A stretch of 42,697 bases of DNA from Nitrospinota bacterium (GTDB lineage Bacteria > Nitrospinota_A > UBA7883 > JACRGQ01): assembly GCA_029881495.1 (NCBI GenBank), contig JAOUMJ010000025.1:1-42697 (forward strand), written 5' to 3'. A program made the position numbers and the translations under genes. Below the pieces are notes generated by a model. The model saw nothing but the letters and a program-made list of their open reading frames with translations, was not told where the DNA came from and searched no databases. Of this stretch, positions 880-41,147 are shown one piece after another (position 1 is the first letter of the stretch; every line of letters starts with the position of its first letter).

Positions 880-2706
880 CTAGTCGAGTTTCGGAACTTC
901 TTTCCTTCCCGAAACAGCGTAGTTGATAAGGTAATTGAACATGCGGATGAGCCTTCCGTTGTTTCTCTTCTGATCCGCCCAGTGCCCAATCAGACCGATG
1001 GTCCTTGCCAGGATGAAAAATCCGTTTAGGGCGTCGTTCGGGAATCCGAGATCGGTAAGGATACATGCCATACAGCCGTCCACGTTCAGGATAAGGTTAT
1101 CCTTCTTTGTGGTCGTTACCTCTTCCACCTTGAGGGCGTAATCGAGACGCGGAGTCGAAATTTTCGCCTCGCGGACGTGCCTGATAAGTTCCTGTACGCG
1201 CTTATCGGGGTTCTTCAAACTTTTAACCCTGTGGCCGATACCTGGAACGGGCCCCACGTTTTTCTTCATGTACGCGAGGAAGCCGGGGATATCGTTCGGG
1301 TACTGGCTCAGGCCGAAATCGAAATATTTGCCCGCATCCGTAACCGCGCCGCCGAAACGGGGCCCGATCATGATGAGCCCTGCCGCGACCGACTGCGAAA
1401 GACCTATTCCGGCGCAAGCCGCCATGATGGTGGCAAACGCGCCCGATACCGCCGGGCCGTGATCGGCAGACAGCATGATGATCCTGCGGATCACTTCTGC
1501 CTCTTTCTTGGTTACAAGTTTCTTGTTCCAGAGAAGACCTATAACGTGGGATATGTCGTACCCCTTGTTGATAAGTTCGGATGCCGGGTATCCGCAGTAG
1601 AGCGGTTCCTCGCCGCGGTCGTCGGAAATTGACGATTTGATGAGAGGCTCTATGAGAAGGTCGCCGCTATCCATAAAGTGTTCAATCTTCTTCGGAAGCT
1701 GCGGGAGATCCGAAGGGGAGACCTCTTCCATCTGTTTCGCCGCGCCTGTCGCAATGAGGTCCTCATATACCTTCTTAATAGCCGGTCCAAGAGCTCCGAA
1801 TGTATCGGGAACGATCGCCCCGGCCGCTTTTAGCGCTTCGGATTTTCCGCGCGCCGAGCCTTCGCCGTGCTGTCCTTCCTTCGCACCCGCGTGGCCGAAT
1901 TTCATCCCTTTGGGGAGCGCCTCCTGGCAGAACCCGGCGATAACAGCTATCACCTTTATCCTGCGAGGTTTCTCCTTGAGCCATCTCGCGGCGTCTTCCT
2001 CGAGGTTTCCCCCCATCTCGCCGACGATAATGACCGCTTTTGTTTCGTTATCCTTCTCGAACATGTCGAGATAGGTTCTGAAATCGGAACAAGGATACGC
2101 GTCGCCGCCGATACCGACAGCGGTGGTAATTCCATCCGCAAACTGGGAGATGATCCACATGATCTCGTTCGAAAGACCGCCGGATTTCGTGAGTACGCCA
2201 AAAGAACCCTGCCTGAAGAGTTTCGACAGGATAAGGTTGTTGTACTCTCCGCCGATAACGCCAAGCCTGCATTTCCCAGCCGACATAACGCCGATCGCGG
2301 ACGGCCCGTTCATTATCTTTCCTGTATCCTTTGCCTTCTTTATGAGAAGTTTCGCGTCCTTCTCCGGCACACCTTCGGTGATCATGGAGATGGCCTTGAT
2401 CTTCGGATTGTCAAACGCTTCCATCGCCGCCTGTGTGGCGCGGTTTGGAGCCACGAAGACAAGCGCGGTGTTTGAACCATGTTTATCCGTTGCCTCTTTC
2501 AATGAGGCGTAGATCGGTACCGCACAGATGGTGTTACCCACAGGAACATCCGCAGTCTTCCCGGCATCGGGAGGAAATACGAAGGCGTCCACATAAAGTT
2601 CCCTGCCGGTGAGGTGGCAGAATTCACCCATCCTCTTCGCGGCGTTAACGGCGGCAGGGCCGCCCATGATCACAACTCTTGTATTCTCGTCAGCAAAAAT
2701 ACTCAT
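880..2706 (-). CDS. aclA: ATP-citrate lyase, large (alpha) subunit AclA
   Basis: With AclB it cleaves citrate using ATP and CoA to acetyl-CoA and oxaloacetate, the signature step of the reductive TCA cycle, in the cytoplasm. The 608-residue length equals what I recall for the Chlorobium AclA. Residues 1-310 form the succinyl-CoA-synthetase-alpha-like part, with the phospho-histidine loop F-G-H-A-G-A (His272). Residues 350-608 form the citrate-synthase-like part, with A-D-H-G-P (His416), G-I-G-H-R-V-K (His492) and N-V-D-G (Asp543), matching the citrate-cleavage residues of the family. The ATG is one base beyond the aclB stop, with GGGGAAG as ribosome site inside the aclB end, so the two are translationally coupled. 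Direction in vivo (citrate cleavage for CO2 fixation) is inferred from the family. Confidence 0.97.
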   Translation of the reverse strand: MSIFADENTRVVIMGGPAAVNAAKRMGEFCHLTGRELYVDAFVFPPDAGKTADVPVGNTICAVPIYASLKEATDKHGSNTALVFVAPNRATQAAMEAFDNPKIKAISMITEGVPEKDAKLLIKKAKDTGKIMNGPSAIGVMSAGKCRLGVIGGEYNNLILSKLFRQGSFGVLTKSGGLSNEIMWIISQFADGITTAVGIGGDAYPCSDFRTYLDMFEKDNETKAVIIVGEMGGNLEEDAARWLKEKPRRIKVIAVIAGFCQEALPKGMKFGHAGAKEGQHGEGSARGKSEALKAAGAIVPDTFGALGPAIKKVYEDLIATGAAKQMEEVSPSDLPQLPKKIEHFMDSGDLLIEPLIKSSISDDRGEEPLYCGYPASELINKGYDISHVIGLLWNKKLVTKKEAEVIRRIIMLSADHGPAVSGAFATIMAACAGIGLSQSVAAGLIMIGPRFGGAVTDAGKYFDFGLSQYPNDIPGFLAYMKKNVGPVPGIGHRVKSLKNPDKRVQELIRHVREAKISTPRLDYALKVEEVTTTKKDNLILNVDGCMACILTDLGFPNDALNGFFILARTIGLIGHWADQKRNNGRLIRMFNYLINYAVSGRKEVPKLD

Positions 2707-2707
2707 C

Positions 2708-3904
2708 CTACTTCCCCAATGCCATGTTAACGATATCGGTTAACGGTGTATATCTGTCGAAGACCTCGATATCAAATCCTTCGTTCTTCAACTCCCTCAT
2801 CGCCGCGAGGCCGGCGGCCTCGTTTGGTCCGCCGCGGCGCACCCATATCTTTACGCCATCCAGCTTTCCTTCCTTCTTCGCCTTCCTGAATCCGTTTATG
2901 ATTCCGGCAAACGTCACCTTTACGTCGGTGAAATTCGCGATAGCGCCGCCGACAATAATGTTTTTAATTCCAGGGAGCGAGCAGACCTCCTCTGTGAGGG
3001 CTTCCACAGCCCACGCTGGCGGATCGCCGGAATACTCCGAGTAGTTTGCAATCGTTCCACCGAGGTTTATAACCGCGTCGGAATAGAAAACCGATGCGCC
3101 GCCACCTGCCGGAAGAAGCGCTGTCGTCCCGCCAGGTATCTCGATAAGCTTCACCGATCCTTTCACGCGGCCGTCAATCTCCATAATCTTCTTTTCGCTC
3201 TGAGTGTATTCACGACCGAACTCCGCCGCGAAGTTGAAGTTCCAGTCTGTATGGCGGAACCGAGCGTCGCCGTCGAGGTTCGTTACCGCGTCGAGAGCGG
3301 TGAGTTCGCCGTTCTTCGGATTCACGATGAGCGGGTTTATCTCTATGTACTGCCCATCCTCGTTGTCGTAGCATTCAAAGAACTTCAGGGCAAACTCGGC
3401 AACCTTGTCTATCAGGTCGGCCTTGAAACCAGCCTCTTTCGCCAGTTTTTTCAGCTGATCGGCGGTCGGCTTTTCGCCAACGACCACAAAAGTCCGTTTT
3501 ATCTTGTCCCAGTTATCCTCAACGTCGATACCACCCATATTTGCCAGAAGTATCTCCGCCCCTTCGCGGGTGGACTGAACCGCGATGTAATACTCGTCAT
3601 CATGAGGGATCATTTCGGCAATGATGACCTGAGAGATCACGAGACCATCCACGTCTTTGCCTAAAATCTCCTTCGTAGCTTTCTTGACCCCGCTGATATC
3701 AAGATCAACTTTCACCAGACCGCGTTTGAACCTTCCACCTATTGCCTCGTGTGCCTTGACGACCATCTTGCGGTCATTCATCCATTTGTTCGACTCGATA
3801 AGATCATCGAGCTGAGAAATGTCTGAAATAACAAGCTGATATGGAGTTTTTACCCCCCATTTCTCGAATAGCCTCATGGCCGGGCCTTCTAAAAGTTTAG
3901 CCAC
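2708..3904 (-). CDS. aclB: ATP-citrate lyase, small (beta) subunit AclB
   Basis: Partner of AclA. It carries the ATP-grasp fold (succinyl-CoA-synthetase-beta-like) that phosphorylates the catalytic histidine of AclA and binds citrate. At 398 residues it matches the Chlorobium-type AclB size. Visible marks are the N-terminal EGPAMRLFEKWG, the ATP-grasp metal-binding stretch E-I-N-P-L-I-V-N, and the C-terminal ligase part with Y-S-G-D-P-P and G-G-A-I-A-N-F-T-D-V. The start is GTG at 3904, supported by GGAGG six bases upstream. It is first in the aclBA operon and has its own promoter about 50 bases upstream. Presence of this pair suggests CO2 fixation by the reductive TCA cycle; the other cycle enzymes are not in this window. 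Confidence 0.97.
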   Translation of the reverse strand: MAKLLEGPAMRLFEKWGVKTPYQLVISDISQLDDLIESNKWMNDRKMVVKAHEAIGGRFKRGLVKVDLDISGVKKATKEILGKDVDGLVISQVIIAEMIPHDDEYYIAVQSTREGAEILLANMGGIDVEDNWDKIKRTFVVVGEKPTADQLKKLAKEAGFKADLIDKVAEFALKFFECYDNEDGQYIEINPLIVNPKNGELTALDAVTNLDGDARFRHTDWNFNFAAEFGREYTQSEKKIMEIDGRVKGSVKLIEIPGGTTALLPAGGGASVFYSDAVINLGGTIANYSEYSGDPPAWAVEALTEEVCSLPGIKNIIVGGAIANFTDVKVTFAGIINGFRKAKKEGKLDGVKIWVRRGGPNEAAGLAAMRELKNEGFDIEVFDRYTPLTDIVNMALGK

Positions 3905-26095: not shown

Positions 26096-27013
26096 CTAGC
26101 GATACCAGATCCAGAACGCAATTATCAGAAAAATAACAACTACAAGAAAGAGATTGAAATAGGCGATAAAATGGAAAAGTTTCTGATGTAAAGAGAGTGA
26201 ATGCCGGTATTCGGTGTCATACGATCCGACCTCTTTCATCCCTTTCAGCTTGAGATCACTGTGCGGCGCTTTGCTTATCTGGCTTGTAAGGTCCTCCCCC
26301 GCCTTGTGGATAAAATGTGTTCCTCTTTTCCAGAGATTGGAATCTGTAACGTCATAAACCTTCCCCATATACGCTATGTATGCGGGTCTCCCTTCATTGC
26401 CGTCGAATTCCATCAGGGTGACAGGATCGTATTTACCATCCTCCGGTTTTCGCGCGGCGCCTGTCGACTGCCGAAGTTTTGGCCCTATAAATATAACAAC
26501 GAATAGACCTGATAGAACAAGAGTAAGGTAGATCGATATTTTTGCCGCCAGCAGGTTGCCCCATGTGGTTTCAGTGAAGACATCCCATCCGCGAACCCTT
26601 GAGATAGTGAGCAGGATGCCGGTTATACCAACAATGATCATCGAACCTATCCCGAGCCTCACCTCTGTTTTCGGCAACCCCTTCTCGGCATATGCCGGTC
26701 GTAAAACTATATGAACATAGAGGATCGTCCCGAGCCATAGAACGCCTGTGAAGATATGAAGGAAGCCGATGATCGGCAAAGCGGAAGCGTCAACAGGCCC
26801 TATCGGCCAGAACCCCCCTGAAGGGGGCCATTTGTAGCCAGAAGCGGCATAATCTATCCCGGCGGGATTAAGCGTTACGCTCTTTTCAAGGTGACATACG
26901 TTGCACCCCTGTTTTGTCCCCCTCGCATAATCGGGCCAGGCATCAAGATTCGCCGGCAACAGGAGGCAAATAAAAAGCGCCTGAAGGAATGGAAACCGGA
27001 AAGATGAACCCAC
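26096..27013 (-). CDS. Membrane cytochrome: c-heme motif, CopD-like helices and cytochrome b5-like domain
   Basis: A 305-residue fusion. A signal-like helix (9-24) precedes one c-type heme site C-N-V-C-H (Cys37, Cys40, His41). Four helices of CopD/DUF-like type follow (about 80-102, 120-138, 152-178), with histidines at 86 and 101. Residues about 195-265 match the COG4892 predicted heme/steroid-binding cytochrome b5 fold (P-A-Y-I-A-Y-M-G-K-V-Y-D-V-T, then L-W-K-R-G-T-H-F-I-H-K-A-G-E-D-L-T). A C-terminal helix (about 280-302) closes it. It probably passes electrons across or at the inner membrane; partners are unknown. A TerB gene lies nine bases upstream and likely shares the transcript. Confidence 0.82.
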   Translation of the reverse strand: MGSSFRFPFLQALFICLLLPANLDAWPDYARGTKQGCNVCHLEKSVTLNPAGIDYAASGYKWPPSGGFWPIGPVDASALPIIGFLHIFTGVLWLGTILYVHIVLRPAYAEKGLPKTEVRLGIGSMIIVGITGILLTISRVRGWDVFTETTWGNLLAAKISIYLTLVLSGLFVVIFIGPKLRQSTGAARKPEDGKYDPVTLMEFDGNEGRPAYIAYMGKVYDVTDSNLWKRGTHFIHKAGEDLTSQISKAPHSDLKLKGMKEVGSYDTEYRHSLSLHQKLFHFIAYFNLFLVVVIFLIIAFWIWYR

Positions 27014-35176: not shown

Positions 35177-35204
35177 TTGACGCGTTACGCGGGGACTGTA
35201 TAAT
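35177..35204 (+). promoter_or_regulatory. Sigma-70-type promoter of the redox operon
   Basis: TTGACG (35177-35182) and a perfect TATAAT (35199-35204) with 16 bases between. The start site would be about 60 bases before the CNB-ferredoxin ATG. Confidence 0.78.
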
Positions 35205-35273
35205 AGCCGGTGCGTTGTGCGGTGAACAGATTTACGGGAACCAAATTACCTGCATTTGATTGGGATTTACATC

Positions 35274-36593
35274 ATGCACCTGAAATATCAGAACTTAACC
35301 GGGTTAATGCAACACTTCCCTGGTATTGACCAGAGAGAAATTGCGGAAGAACTCAAAGAGTGCCAGACCATAAATTACGAGCCTGGCGACTACCTTTGCA
35401 GGGATGGCGAGTACGATCATACATGCGGCGTAATACTGGACGGACGCGCGGAAGTTAGACTCCCCAACTCCATTAAAACTATCGACCTTGCGAAGGGAGA
35501 ACTGTTCGGCGAAATAGCCGTGCTCAGCGGAAATCCCCGTATTGCAGATATAATCGCTACCGAATTCACCTCCGCGCTTATCATCCCCGGCAACAAGTTT
35601 CTTGAATTGCTGGATAGATATCCAAAGGCCAAAACATCGGTTGACGAGCAGTATCTGAAACGAGCGCTCGAAACGCACCTCCACTCGGTATCCATATTTT
35701 CCGGCCTTTCAGACAAGGTGATACACGACCTGCAAAAGGATATCGTTCTCCTTTCCTTCAAAAGCGGAGATGTGATCTTCAATAAGGGTGACGAAGCCGA
35801 TTATTTCTATCTTATACGTTACGGATATGTAAAGGTCTCACAGCCGAATGAAGCGGGCGAGGAGAGGATCGTCTCCTACCTCACGGTAGGGCACCACTTC
35901 GGAGAGATTGCCCTTATGCATGAAGGTGTGAAGAGGATCGCCACCGTGACAGCCATCAGCAGAACCGAAGTCATCGGAATAGCAAAAAAACAGTTTTTGA
36001 AATTTCTTGAGACGCACCCCGAAATTAAAAGCAACATGGAAAAGATAATCGAGATGAGAGTGGAAAAAAACGTGCTTCTTGAAAGGGATCCGCTTTTATC
36101 AGCTATTCTGAACACATCAGTCGACTACGGAGTGGTTCAATCCAAAAACGTGCTGATTATCGACATGACAAAATGCATAAACTGCAACTGCTGTGTGAAT
36201 GCCTGCGCTTCACTTCACGAAGGAGAGACCCTCCTTGTGAAAAAAGGTGTCTGGCTGGATAATTATTTCCTAGTGCCGGCTTCGTGCAGACACTGCGCCG
36301 ATCCGGTATGCATGACCGATTGCCCCACCTCATCCATCGTAAGGGACGTTAACGGTGAAATTTATCACAAAAAATCGTGCATCGGGTGCGGCAACTGCGC
36401 AAGGCTCTGCCCGTACGGGAACATATCGATAATCACATCCCGCAAGCCTTCGGGCGGAACACGAAAACACGCGCTTAAATGCGATATGTGTCGACATTAT
36501 GAATCGATGGGATGCGTATACAACTGCCCCACGGGCGCCGCTAAACGGATCAACCCTACAGAGTTTCTAAATGATATGGGCCCGCTGATATGA
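35274..36593 (+). CDS. Tandem cyclic-nucleotide-binding domains fused to a four-cluster ferredoxin
   Basis: A 439-residue fusion. Two cNMP-binding folds come first (about 10-130 and 138-265), with phosphate-binding cassettes F-G-E-I-A-V-L-S-G-N-P-R-I-A (Arg89) and F-G-E-I-A-L-M-H-E-G-V-K-R-I-A-T (Arg221). The ferredoxin part (about 295-439) has four cysteine groups: C301/304/307/311 (with an extra C306), C338/341/346/350, C369/372/375/379 and C403/406/414/418, as in HybA/NrfC/DmsB electron-transfer subunits. No signal peptide is seen, so it should face the cytoplasm. It likely passes electrons between a soluble donor and the membrane subunit encoded next (overlap ATGA), with cNMP as a possible gate. 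The start at 35274 is preferred over a TTG at 35256. Confidence 0.9.
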   Translation: MHLKYQNLTGLMQHFPGIDQREIAEELKECQTINYEPGDYLCRDGEYDHTCGVILDGRAEVRLPNSIKTIDLAKGELFGEIAVLSGNPRIADIIATEFTSALIIPGNKFLELLDRYPKAKTSVDEQYLKRALETHLHSVSIFSGLSDKVIHDLQKDIVLLSFKSGDVIFNKGDEADYFYLIRYGYVKVSQPNEAGEERIVSYLTVGHHFGEIALMHEGVKRIATVTAISRTEVIGIAKKQFLKFLETHPEIKSNMEKIIEMRVEKNVLLERDPLLSAILNTSVDYGVVQSKNVLIIDMTKCINCNCCVNACASLHEGETLLVKKGVWLDNYFLVPASCRHCADPVCMTDCPTSSIVRDVNGEIYHKKSCIGCGNCARLCPYGNISIITSRKPSGGTRKHALKCDMCRHYESMGCVYNCPTGAAKRINPTEFLNDMGPLI

Positions 36594-37444
36594 AAAAGAA
36601 AAATTCATCAAAAAAGATCGCCGCATTTGTTGAAACGGATGATTTCGGCTCAGGTAGAAAGTGGGCGCTCTTTCTCTCCTTCGCGATTCTTTCACTCCTT
36701 GTCTCCCTCATCTTTTATTTGAAAAAACAGGAAGGGCACGCCGGGACATTTACAGGGATGGTCTACGGCGGTATCGCACTCACTTCGGTCATTTTTCTTT
36801 CCCTGTACCGCATTCGGAGAAGCGTATTCAGTTTCAAATTCGGCTCGATGCAGTGGTGGATGACTGGGCATATCTACGTCGGCCTTCTGGCCATCATCCC
36901 GGTGCTGATGCATACCAATTTTAGACTCCACGGGATATTCAGCCTCTTTTTTTTCTCCCTTTTCATCGTAGTCATTGCCAGCGGTGCGATAGGATGGTAC
37001 CTCAACTCAACACTACCGGCAGCTCTCACAAGATACGGTGTTATGTCTGCCAACGAGAATGACCTTGCCGGTGAAATAGTGAAGCAGACCGAGGAGATAG
37101 AATCGTATCTCAATTCAAAGGCGCAACATTTTAAAAGCAGCACCATCCCTTACCTGCATGAGTACCTGCAAAAGAAACCTGTTATTTACAGCAGAATGTT
37201 CATAAGCGACAGAGAGGCGCTTAGTCGCCTGAAATATAAATTCGAACGGCTGAAACTTAACGCCTCCCCGCGCGACGTATACTCCCTCGGCATCCTCCGC
37301 TCACTCCTTATGAAAAGGGAGAACCTGATTATACGTCACTCCAAACACCAGCTATTGCGCGGATGGCTGAACGTGCATGTGCCTTTGACCGCGGCGCTTC
37401 TTGCCGCCGCTCTTGTTCACGTTACTTCCATGCTTTATTTTTAG
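36590..37444 (+). CDS. Membrane cytochrome b-like subunit, two candidate diheme histidine pairs
   Basis: The 284-residue protein has about five membrane helices (25-44, 52-74, 90-110, 116-138, 262-284) and a soluble loop (about 145-250). Histidines at 94/108 (G-H-I-Y ... M-H-T-N) and 263/277 (V-H-V-P ... V-H-V-T) are each 14 residues apart inside helices, the spacing of b-heme ligands in cytochrome b, NarI and succinate dehydrogenase anchors. His114 may also take part. Its start overlaps the previous stop by four bases, and the multiheme gene follows 14 bases on. It would connect the cytoplasmic Fe-S subunit with the periplasmic cytochrome across the inner membrane. No named family recognised. 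Confidence 0.83.
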   Translation: MKKKNSSKKIAAFVETDDFGSGRKWALFLSFAILSLLVSLIFYLKKQEGHAGTFTGMVYGGIALTSVIFLSLYRIRRSVFSFKFGSMQWWMTGHIYVGLLAIIPVLMHTNFRLHGIFSLFFFSLFIVVIASGAIGWYLNSTLPAALTRYGVMSANENDLAGEIVKQTEEIESYLNSKAQHFKSSTIPYLHEYLQKKPVIYSRMFISDREALSRLKYKFERLKLNASPRDVYSLGILRSLLMKRENLIIRHSKHQLLRGWLNVHVPLTAALLAAALVHVTSMLYF

Positions 37445-37458
37445 GGACTGATAAGATT

Positions 37459-38454
37459 ATGAGACTGTTCCTTTCAATTGCCGCTGTGGCCGTAGTCATA
37501 GCCTTTGCTTTCGCAGGCTATAAGGCGAGCAACGGAGCGATTTTCATGAATGAGGATCTGTCGGCAAACCATGAGGCGGCGGAGGAGGATTGCGACGTCT
37601 GTCATGACGCCTGGGGCGGTGTGCCGGTCTCATCCTGCGAAAACTGCCACGATAAAAAGGTGCACATAATCAGGGCGAACAAATGCACCGCCTGTCACGC
37701 GGACGAGAAACCTCTCTGGCATGTAAAGATAAATTCCGAATGCTGGGGCTGCCACAACAGATTCGACTGGGCTACCGGTCCGCAGGTTCCCGAATGGGCG
37801 AAGGAACTAAAACATGCCTCCGGCGACATCCCCCATCAAGGGAAACGCGACTGTTATTCCTGCCACGAGGAACACAAGGGGAGACACAGGGATATCAGGA
37901 AAATCGAGGACAATAAATGCAAACGATGTCACCTCCACAAGAACCATCCCCCCGCGCGCCCGGTCTATCCGAAGAAGGGGGATCAGAATCCGCTGAATTT
38001 TTCGCACAAGATACATTTCGAAAAAACTACGCTCGATTCGAAAAATTGCGACTTCTGCCATACAAGGAGAATGCCGGACGGAAAGGTGATGCTTACCGCT
38101 TCATTCCGCAAACATTGCGGAACATCCTGCCACGAACTGCCGGATCATAAAAGGAACGCAAAGGATACAAGCAAATGCAAACTGTGCCACACGAGGGACG
38201 ATTACAGCATCGTTCCAAAACTTACTTTGCCGAAGATAAACCTTGTTCACGCGCCTGAGCGTCACGCAAAATTTGAATGTCTCGAATGCCATACGAACGT
38301 GATCAATATCGAATCGGGCGTCTTCGTTAAAAAGGTAGAGGTGAGCATCTGCACCACATGCCATAAGCTGAAAAAGATGAATTCAAACTGCACTACCTGC
38401 CACCAGTTCCACAACCACGAAAAAATCGAATCGGAAACAATTGCTAATTATTAG
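37459..38454 (+). CDS. Dodecaheme c-type cytochrome, membrane-anchored
   Basis: A 331-residue periplasmic cytochrome. The N-terminus (M-R-L-F-L-S-I-A-A-V-A-V-V-I-A-F-A-F-A) is an uncleaved anchor or signal. I count eleven C-x-x-C-H heme sites (CDVCH, CENCH, CTACH, CWGCH, CYSCH, CKRCH, CDFCH, CKLCH, CLECH, CTTCH, CTTCH) and one C-x3-C-H site (CGTSCH). Other histidines such as S-H-K-I-H can be distal ligands. Start at 37459 chosen because upstream residues of a longer frame overlap the cytochrome b gene and spoil the signal. Role: electron wire from the quinone/cytochrome b side to periplasmic acceptors or donors. Dense heme content with little other fold resembles NapC/NrfH-linked or extracellular-transfer cytochromes, but no exact family recognised. 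Confidence 0.93.
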   Translation: MRLFLSIAAVAVVIAFAFAGYKASNGAIFMNEDLSANHEAAEEDCDVCHDAWGGVPVSSCENCHDKKVHIIRANKCTACHADEKPLWHVKINSECWGCHNRFDWATGPQVPEWAKELKHASGDIPHQGKRDCYSCHEEHKGRHRDIRKIEDNKCKRCHLHKNHPPARPVYPKKGDQNPLNFSHKIHFEKTTLDSKNCDFCHTRRMPDGKVMLTASFRKHCGTSCHELPDHKRNAKDTSKCKLCHTRDDYSIVPKLTLPKINLVHAPERHAKFECLECHTNVINIESGVFVKKVEVSICTTCHKLKKMNSNCTTCHQFHNHEKIESETIANY

Positions 38455-39160: not shown

Positions 39161-40657
39161 TTAGCCGCAATCTCTTTCTGTCCCGTCGCCAAGCATCAAT
39201 ATAGAATTTTTACTGCTCCCATGTCCATACGCCATCTGTGTGAGCTTAAGTACGCAATCTTTCAATGTTTCCGTCTGTTCTTTTAGATCATTTGAAGAGG
39301 CGGCGGTCTCCTCTGCGTTTGCGGCATTTCTTTGCACCGACGAATCAATCTGTTCCACCGCGGTGTTAATCTGCGTAATACCTTCCGCCTGCATATCGCT
39401 CTGCCTCGCGATGCTGGTGAGTTTGATATCTACATCAACGATAAACTTCGTAATCTTTTGTAATGATGATGCTGCTTTGTGTACAAGATCGACCCCTTTT
39501 TTGGAATTCGCGTCTGCCGCATTTATAAGCTGAGCCGTATCCTTGGCGGCGGCTGTCGAACGCTGTGCAAGATTGCGCACCTCTTCAGCAACAACGGCGA
39601 AACCTTTCCCCTGCTCTCCGGCGCGCGCCGCTTCGACCGCGGCGTTCAGCGCTAGTAGATTTGTTTGAAAAGCGATCTCTTCAATAAGTTTGATTACCTT
39701 TGATATCTCTGACGAACTTTTGGCCACTTCACCCATTGAGGTCACCGCCGAATCCATTAGATTACCTGTATCACTCATAAGACCATTTGCCTCCTCGGCC
39801 TGATGGTACGCCTCATTCGCGGCCTTCGCATTTTTTTTAGCGATTTGAGCAAACTCGACAAGCGTGGAAGAGGTCTCTTCAATTGACGCTGCCTGCTGGG
39901 TAGACGCTTCGGAAAGCTGCATGCTTGCGCCTGCTATCTGTAAGGAAGAATTTGAAACTCTCTCAAAATTTTCTGTTATCTGTTCAATTACACCGTAGAG
40001 AATGTTGTTTACATTCTTTCGCACTAAAAAAACGAGAACCATTATTACCAATATCAGTTGCACCACCAAAATCGATATTTGTTCCTTTAAATTCGTAGCG
40101 GCATGCTTTTCCATTTCGTCAAGTGAAATGATCAAGCTTATCGCGCCATTTACTGTCCCTTCGCTCCCTTCATGGCAATCCATGCAGTTGATCATCCCCC
40201 CCCTGTCCCTAGACATTATGAAGGGAACAACCGCCCGCATGGTTTTTTTTCCTGAACCGCTCTCCTCAATACGGAATATGCTTTTTCCATTCGAAAGCAC
40301 ATTGCGCTCTGCGTCATCCCTTGGCTCCTGTTCTTTCCCGTAACCACGGTTCTCAAACTGCTCGTTTACAGATTCGGCACGGATAACTCTCAGCTCTTCT
40401 ATACCGGAAGTGGTTTTTCTTAACAGTTCCATATAAAATTTCCGCTCGCTCATGATCCCGTTCAACATCATGGTATTTAAGGAGCCTAAAACTGTGTCGG
40501 ATATTCCGCTCGCAAATAATTTTGCCTCCAGCTCTGTTAGTTCTGATTGTTTTTTGACGGACCAGAATATATTGAAAGCCGATATAAGAGTAAGAACAAG
40601 GCCTATCGATAAGGTGAGCTTGGCCCCGATACCCAATTTGTTAAACCAATTAAACAT
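39161..40657 (-). CDS. Methyl-accepting chemotaxis protein with periplasmic c-heme site
   Basis: About 498 residues. Two membrane helices (about 13-33 and 194-213) bracket a periplasmic sensor of about 160 residues that carries C-M-D-C-H (Cys158, Cys161, His162), a covalent heme c site of the Tll0287-like/DUF3365 sensor type. Such heme-PAS receptors in Geobacter (as I recall) sense redox or gas. The C-terminal half is the usual signalling domain with the conserved tip [24 protein letters not shown] second-site C-terminal pentapeptide was not seen. The start at 40657 has AAGGAG at good spacing; a TTG three bases earlier is less likely. It is divergent from cheR, and so probably belongs with it. 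Confidence 0.92.
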
Positions 40658-41147
40658 CAAAATCTCCTTGTGCGCGATTTAGAACAGGCGATATCACTGG
40701 ACAGATGAGTTGACCCCATACCTCCGTACGCCTGGTTCCAATCTATATTTCATTTTGCAGCAGCTTCAGGCGCGAACGCCTAAAACATTTTTATGACTTT
40801 TCATTATCCCAGCAATATCGAAATAAATGAAATAAACATTAATGTTATATTTGCTATCAATAAAGCTGCATAATCATTACCTGATGGAAACAATCAAGGC
40901 AAGATAGAGCGGCAGGAATCGAGGCTCAGAACTCGCCAAAATATAAATTGCCCGAATATCCACAAAAAGACCGAGACACTGGGTGCTTCTGTTACATTTG
41001 CTACATAATTTGTCAACCGATAGGCCCGCCAACTGCTTGAAAAATAATTAAACTTTCCAGATTTTTAAATTCAAACGATTCATAATAAACTTATGAGTAC
41101 AACTTGTTTTGAAAGTTTCAGGCCTAGAGAAATAGCAGGAAGAGATA
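40658..41147. other. 490-bp divergent intergenic region
   Basis: It lies between the heme receptor (minus) and cheR (plus) and must carry both promoters. It is AT-rich, with a small AGGCG-CGAA-CGCCT hairpin at 40768-40781 in the receptor leader. No gene, and no convincing -35/-10 or flagellar-type promoter, was recognised. Confidence 0.4.

Follow-up and report, generated by a model that had tools for sequence, protein, structure and literature searches.

Organization of the operon

Three tightly packed genes lie on the forward strand of the analysed window, a stretch of 42,697 nucleotides (positions 1 to 42,697) of contig JAOUMJ010000025.1 from a Nitrospinota bacterium. The first (35274..36593), identified by its open reading frame, Pfam matches and homologues, encodes a protein with two cyclic-nucleotide-binding (CNB) domains followed by a domain for four [4Fe-4S] clusters; it has 439 residues counted from an ATG, a TTG at 35256 being also possible as the start. 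The second (36590..37444) encodes a five-helix membrane protein of 284 residues, predicted from its fold model and histidine alignment to be a di-heme cytochrome b, and the third (37459..38454) encodes a 12-heme c-type cytochrome of 331 residues with an N-terminal membrane anchor or signal, recognised by Pfam and by its CxxCH count. The first two genes share a 4-bp ATGA overlap and the last two are separated by a 14-bp gap, exactly as the initial annotation of this DNA had described. Upstream, a sigma-70-type sequence (TTGACG-16 nt-TATAAT, 35177..35204, forward strand) agrees with the consensus at 11 of 12 positions. The earlier description of this element as a good promoter agrees with the match itself; in the region as a whole promoter-like sites are no commoner than in shuffled sequence (4 versus 4.8), so that the element is a consensus match rather than proof of a promoter. 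Terminator counts in the region likewise show no excess over shuffles. The operon in the window contains neither a catalytic subunit nor a flavoprotein, and no redox genes beyond the three.

Elsewhere in the window, the reverse strand encodes the two subunits of ATP-citrate lyase, an enzyme that marks the reductive TCA cycle (880-3904), a CopD-like membrane protein that has a single CNVCH motif and matches cytochrome b5-like proteins weakly (26096-27013), and a chemoreceptor whose predicted periplasmic part contains one c-heme motif, CMDCH (39161-40660). A protein similar to the latter, also with one heme motif, is encoded about 3.8 kb from the operon at another locus (L121).

The Fe-S subunit

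Pfam assigns two cNMP_binding domains (E 2.9e-39) and several Fer4 families to the first protein, confirming an Fe-S protein with two cyclic-nucleotide domains, and neither a signal peptide nor a membrane helix was seen in it. CNB domain 1 (35361..35618, forward strand) contains the phosphate-binding cassette FGEIAVLSGNPRIA with Glu-80 and Arg-89, while CNB domain 2 (35751..36017, forward strand) contains the cassette FGEIALMHEGVKRIA with Glu-211 and Arg-221, both domains being placed by Pfam and alignment. The tandem matches the PKA regulatory subunit and PKG in a sequence-profile comparison (about 3e-39 for PKG) as well as in a fold search (E 4e-20 to 1e-15), and the protein thus combines the CNB fold with the pocket Glu and Arg of cNMP-binding domains. 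In the alignment all four pocket residues are kept in 14/14 sequences of the phylum. Outside it, Glu-80 is retained in 59/70 and Arg-89 in 62/70 homologues, compared with 24/70 for Glu-211 and 23/70 for Arg-221. As the CNB2 pocket is mostly lost in distant homologues, ligand binding throughout the family is likely for CNB1 alone, which probably forms the general site, CNB2 probably serving as a further one in the host phylum. CNB folds lacking ligand pockets had been named at the outset as an observation that would speak against nucleotide control, and what is found instead is that the pocket Glu and Arg are kept, family-wide in CNB1 and within the phylum in CNB2.

The ferredoxin domain (36162..36539, forward strand) is of the DmsB/NrfC/HycB type according to profile matches and the cysteine alignment, with 16 cysteines in the order and spacing of the four-cluster superfamily and one extra cysteine, Cys-306. 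The first 12 cluster cysteines are present in 70/70 distant homologues, except Cys-379 (69/70, with one gap), and the last four in 61/61 homologues that align there, the other nine of the 70 being unaligned. The earlier label HybA-like is sound at the level of the superfamily but not for HybA proper, to which the protein scores 40.9 bits against an NCBIfam cut-off of 263. The ferredoxin part of the fold model has low confidence and was too poor for use.

The membrane subunit

The fold model of the second protein (mean pLDDT 77) displays five membrane helices, with a domain of ~110 residues at about 144–257 between helices 4 and 5. Two histidine pairs, His-94/His-108 and His-263/His-277, each follow the pattern H-x13-H and lie on two helices at the spacing of b-heme ligands, comparable to cytochrome b561, DUF4405 and ferric reductase-like proteins. 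The two pairs reported in the initial annotation are thus borne out, and they are invariant: His-94/His-108 are kept in 73/73 sequences and His-263/His-277 in 71/71, two sequences not covering the latter pair. Ligation of one b heme by His-94 and His-263 and of another by His-108 and His-277 is predicted. The N-terminus is rich in lysine, the 144–257 domain carries 20 Lys/Arg residues and the short C-terminus carries none; this charge distribution points to an N-inside, C-outside topology, which fits the fusions described below, where the cytoplasmic Fe-S domain comes ahead of helix 1. His-94 and His-263 would accordingly face the cytoplasm, and His-108 and His-277 the periplasm. No Pfam family matches the protein and no family database names this subunit. 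A sequence-profile search of the PDB returned no credible match, and a fold search of the PDB with the model gave nothing at E<=0.001, the best hit being cytochrome b561 at E 0.3. Some homologues match the cytochrome b561, DUF4405 or ferric reductase families weakly (best E 3.7e-4, under the curated cut-offs), while the window protein has no such match.

The multiheme cytochrome

Twelve heme sites, the number given in the initial annotation, are found in the third protein: 11 CxxCH motifs and one CxxxCH at residue 220, a place occupied by a plain CxxCH in homologues. Shuffled versions of the sequence contain a mean of 0.135 and a maximum of 3 CxxCH motifs, so the count is not due to chance. 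Pfam places the protein among multiheme cytochromes of the C7/c3 type (PF14522, 52.2 bits against a cut-off of 24.8). Homologues in the phylum have 8–10 CxxCH motifs.

Conservation of the gene set

Within the phylum, the Fe-S protein (scored at E<=1e-40) was detected in 15 of the 24 genomes sampled, several of which hold two to three copies. The membrane protein and a multiheme cytochrome adjoin the Fe-S gene in nearly all the phylum loci read, although gene order varies and one genome (G012) has a 10-heme cytochrome upstream instead of downstream. Identity of the window proteins to their phylum homologues is 38–50% for the Fe-S subunit, 26–31% for the membrane subunit and 23–31% for the cytochrome. 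The flanking genes vary among genomes, which identifies the three genes as the unit.

Beyond the phylum, the alignment of the Fe-S protein alone was used to scan 84,980 species, each represented by one genome, and the best 80 loci were taken. The membrane protein is directly downstream in 61 of these loci and fused to the Fe-S protein in 12, thus accompanying it in 73, and a multiheme cytochrome lies beside the pair in 70; five of the seven loci without a membrane protein stop at most 255 bases from a contig edge. As the loci were picked by one gene, the co-occurrence of the other two is independent evidence for the set, and the co-occurrence check suggested initially thus gave a positive answer both here and across most of the phylum. 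The 12 fusions speak for a physical complex. Comparison of the Fe-S protein tree with that of the membrane protein gives a correlation of r = 0.90 (permuted maximum 0.27), a value to which shared species history contributes in part. The set spans at least ten phyla, namely Pseudomonadota, Verrucomicrobiota, Myxococcota, Planctomycetota, Nitrospinota, Acidobacteriota, Nitrospirota, Binatota, Lentisphaerota and Kiritimatiellota, and its carriers include a cultured Sorangium and Candidatus Uabimicrobium, in whose phylum 14/59 genomes drawn encode the Fe-S protein.

Partner modules and related systems

At eight loci from Acidobacteriota, Myxococcota, Binatota and related groups, the subunit encoded downstream joins c hemes to an FAD/NAD(P) domain, with [4Fe-4S] clusters sitting between the two in seven of the eight. 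Four of these subunits begin with one to four FHA domains, giving an unusual architecture in which FHA, multiple c hemes, two [4Fe-4S] clusters and FAD/NAD(P) are combined in a single polypeptide (L049:8290-11298, L055:8279-12097, L058:8196-11915 and L059:8543-11869). At L050 the FAD/NAD(P) domain is fused onto the CNB-Fe-S protein itself. The FAD/NAD(P) modules make NAD(P)H a likely cytoplasmic partner in those lineages. At L045 and L120 a [4Fe-4S] glutamate-synthase-like protein overlaps the start of the operon. An extended operon with a 4-heme cytochrome upstream is seen at L061 (4391-5347 and 9830-12256), and similar ones occur in many Alphaproteobacteria, Planctomycetota and Verrucomicrobiota, some with a 5-heme cytochrome downstream in addition.

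The host genome encodes a second, related system on contig 6 (G000, 56789-59053, equivalent to L031:6790-9054). Its di-heme-type membrane protein also has two H-x13-H pairs (28–30% identity over about 111 residues), its Fe-S partner gene is adjoining and a multiheme cytochrome is nearby. In contrast to the window operon, this system pairs the membrane protein with a 2[4Fe-4S]-FAD/NAD(P) flavoprotein that has no CNB domains. This flavoprotein, of 446 residues with one membrane helix and two [4Fe-4S] clusters, is 27–39% identical to the FAD/NAD(P) modules of the eight loci, mostly over 385–454 alignment columns. Next to the second system lies the gene for a cytochrome of 1168 residues with 38 CxxCH motifs (L031:10385-13891, reverse strand).

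Proposed mechanism and alternatives

The initial annotation had proposed a transmembrane electron conduit tuned by a nucleotide. The conduit itself is very probable: composition, topology, invariant ligands, conservation, co-inheritance and the fusion of the first two subunits all support it, and the topology and invariant ligands fit a path from cytoplasm to periplasm. In such an inner-membrane complex, electrons would pass between a cytoplasmic redox partner and the four [4Fe-4S] clusters, between the clusters and two b hemes stacked across the membrane (His-94/His-263 on the cytoplasmic and His-108/His-277 on the periplasmic side), and between these hemes and the 12-heme periplasmic cytochrome, which would exchange electrons with other periplasmic carriers. 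At the N-terminal end of the Fe-S subunit, the tandem CNB domains would bind cyclic nucleotide, and the helix joining CNB2 to the ferredoxin domain may relay binding as altered docking or activity of this subunit, such that electron flux would follow the second messenger. Cofactor occupancy, nucleotide binding and gating are points that we infer. The tuning proposed initially is less secure than the conduit; control of the complex by a cyclic nucleotide is modestly favoured, and the combination of conduit and nucleotide control, taken irrespective of direction, stands slightly above an even chance. The host genome has five class III nucleotidyl cyclase matches. Since cyclases occur in 23/24 phylum genomes, with or without the operon, they do not discriminate in favour of specific cNMP control and show only that a ligand could be made.

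A net outward flow from NAD(P)H or ferredoxin is reasonably probable. The same complex working inward, with periplasmic donors reducing the cytochrome, then the clusters and finally ferredoxin or NAD(P) at the expense of the membrane potential, would supply reductant for CO2 fixation, as the ATP-citrate lyase genes in the window might suggest. We consider this unlikely, since the set is likewise frequent in Planctomycetota, Verrucomicrobiota, Myxococcota and Alphaproteobacteria, which to our knowledge are not generally known for the reductive TCA cycle; the four-cluster module itself gives no direction. Somewhat less probable still is a quinone-linked module in which the di-heme b subunit exchanges electrons with the quinone pool in one direction or the other, like FdnI of formate dehydrogenase-N, with the Fe-S protein or the cytochrome as the other partner. 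FdnI-type subunits share the few helices and two b hemes, and the weak matches to the cytochrome b561, DUF4405 and ferric reductase families would agree with such a role, but these matches fall under curated cut-offs and the arrangement, with clusters and a multiheme cytochrome on opposite sides, suggests direct transfer.

Another reading is that the CNB domains bind no cyclic nucleotide but some different ligand, or none at all, and act as a scaffold. Heme is the ligand of some CNB-fold regulators, trypanosome PKA regulatory subunits that are described as cAMP-independent, and of which some were solved with guanosine, are among the best structural matches, and CNB2 has lost its pocket in most distant homologues. 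The ribose- and phosphate-holding Glu and Arg are nevertheless kept in CNB1 (59 and 62 of 70) and in both domains within the phylum (14/14), and the scaffold role is the less plausible reading, if a serious one. Very improbable, finally, is a redox or nucleotide sensor that signals across the membrane with no significant flux. The high content of signal domains (CNB here, FHA in relatives) and the nearby genes for a histidine kinase and the heme-bearing chemoreceptor would suit a sensor, yet the neighbouring genes vary between genomes, and 16 conserved cluster cysteines, two b-heme sites and 8–12 c hemes far exceed what a sensor needs.

Regulation of electron-transfer chains is usually attributed to gene expression or to the supply of substrate. 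Were the preferred reading of a nucleotide-controlled conduit true, a CNB receptor fused to the Fe-S subunit would give a second messenger direct influence on the flow of electrons. More tentatively, the set may stand for a class of membrane redox complexes, widespread and unnamed, in which second messengers directly set the flow: cyclic nucleotides by way of the built-in CNB domains and possibly, in several phyla, phosphorylation by way of the FHA domains on the heme and flavin/NAD(P) subunit. Carriers of the set, a cultured Sorangium among them, are spread over at least ten phyla, so that binding and redox assays could address the idea directly.

Comparison with known systems

The initial annotation knew of no named complex of this composition, and our literature search, thin on subscription journals, likewise found no description of it; no paper among those searched combined the terms cyclic nucleotide-binding and multiheme cytochrome, and the genome papers examined that cover the phylum do not mention cyclic nucleotides. 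A complex of Fe-S protein, membrane cytochrome and multiheme cytochrome is of a known kind, while the CNB-fused form is undescribed in the literature searched. The Hmc, Tmc and Dsr-type complexes of sulfate reducers and the Cbc complexes of Geobacter similarly encode a multi-cluster Fe-S protein, a membrane subunit and a periplasmic multiheme cytochrome in one operon. The window operon differs in having fewer genes and a membrane subunit without a Pfam match, and we know of no CNB domains in those complexes. It also lacks an NrfD-like or HdrD-like subunit and does not belong to the Hmc/Tmc/Dsr type. The FdnH-FdnI pair of formate dehydrogenase-N resembles the window complex in joining a four-cluster Fe-S protein to a di-heme b membrane partner. 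In contrast, the window complex has no molybdenum subunit, its Fe-S protein is cytoplasmic, its membrane subunit has five predicted helices, and a multiheme cytochrome and CNB domains are added. The tandem CNB arrangement and the pocket residues are those of the PKA regulatory subunit and PKG, whereas the output domain is a four-cluster ferredoxin rather than a kinase or a kinase inhibitor.
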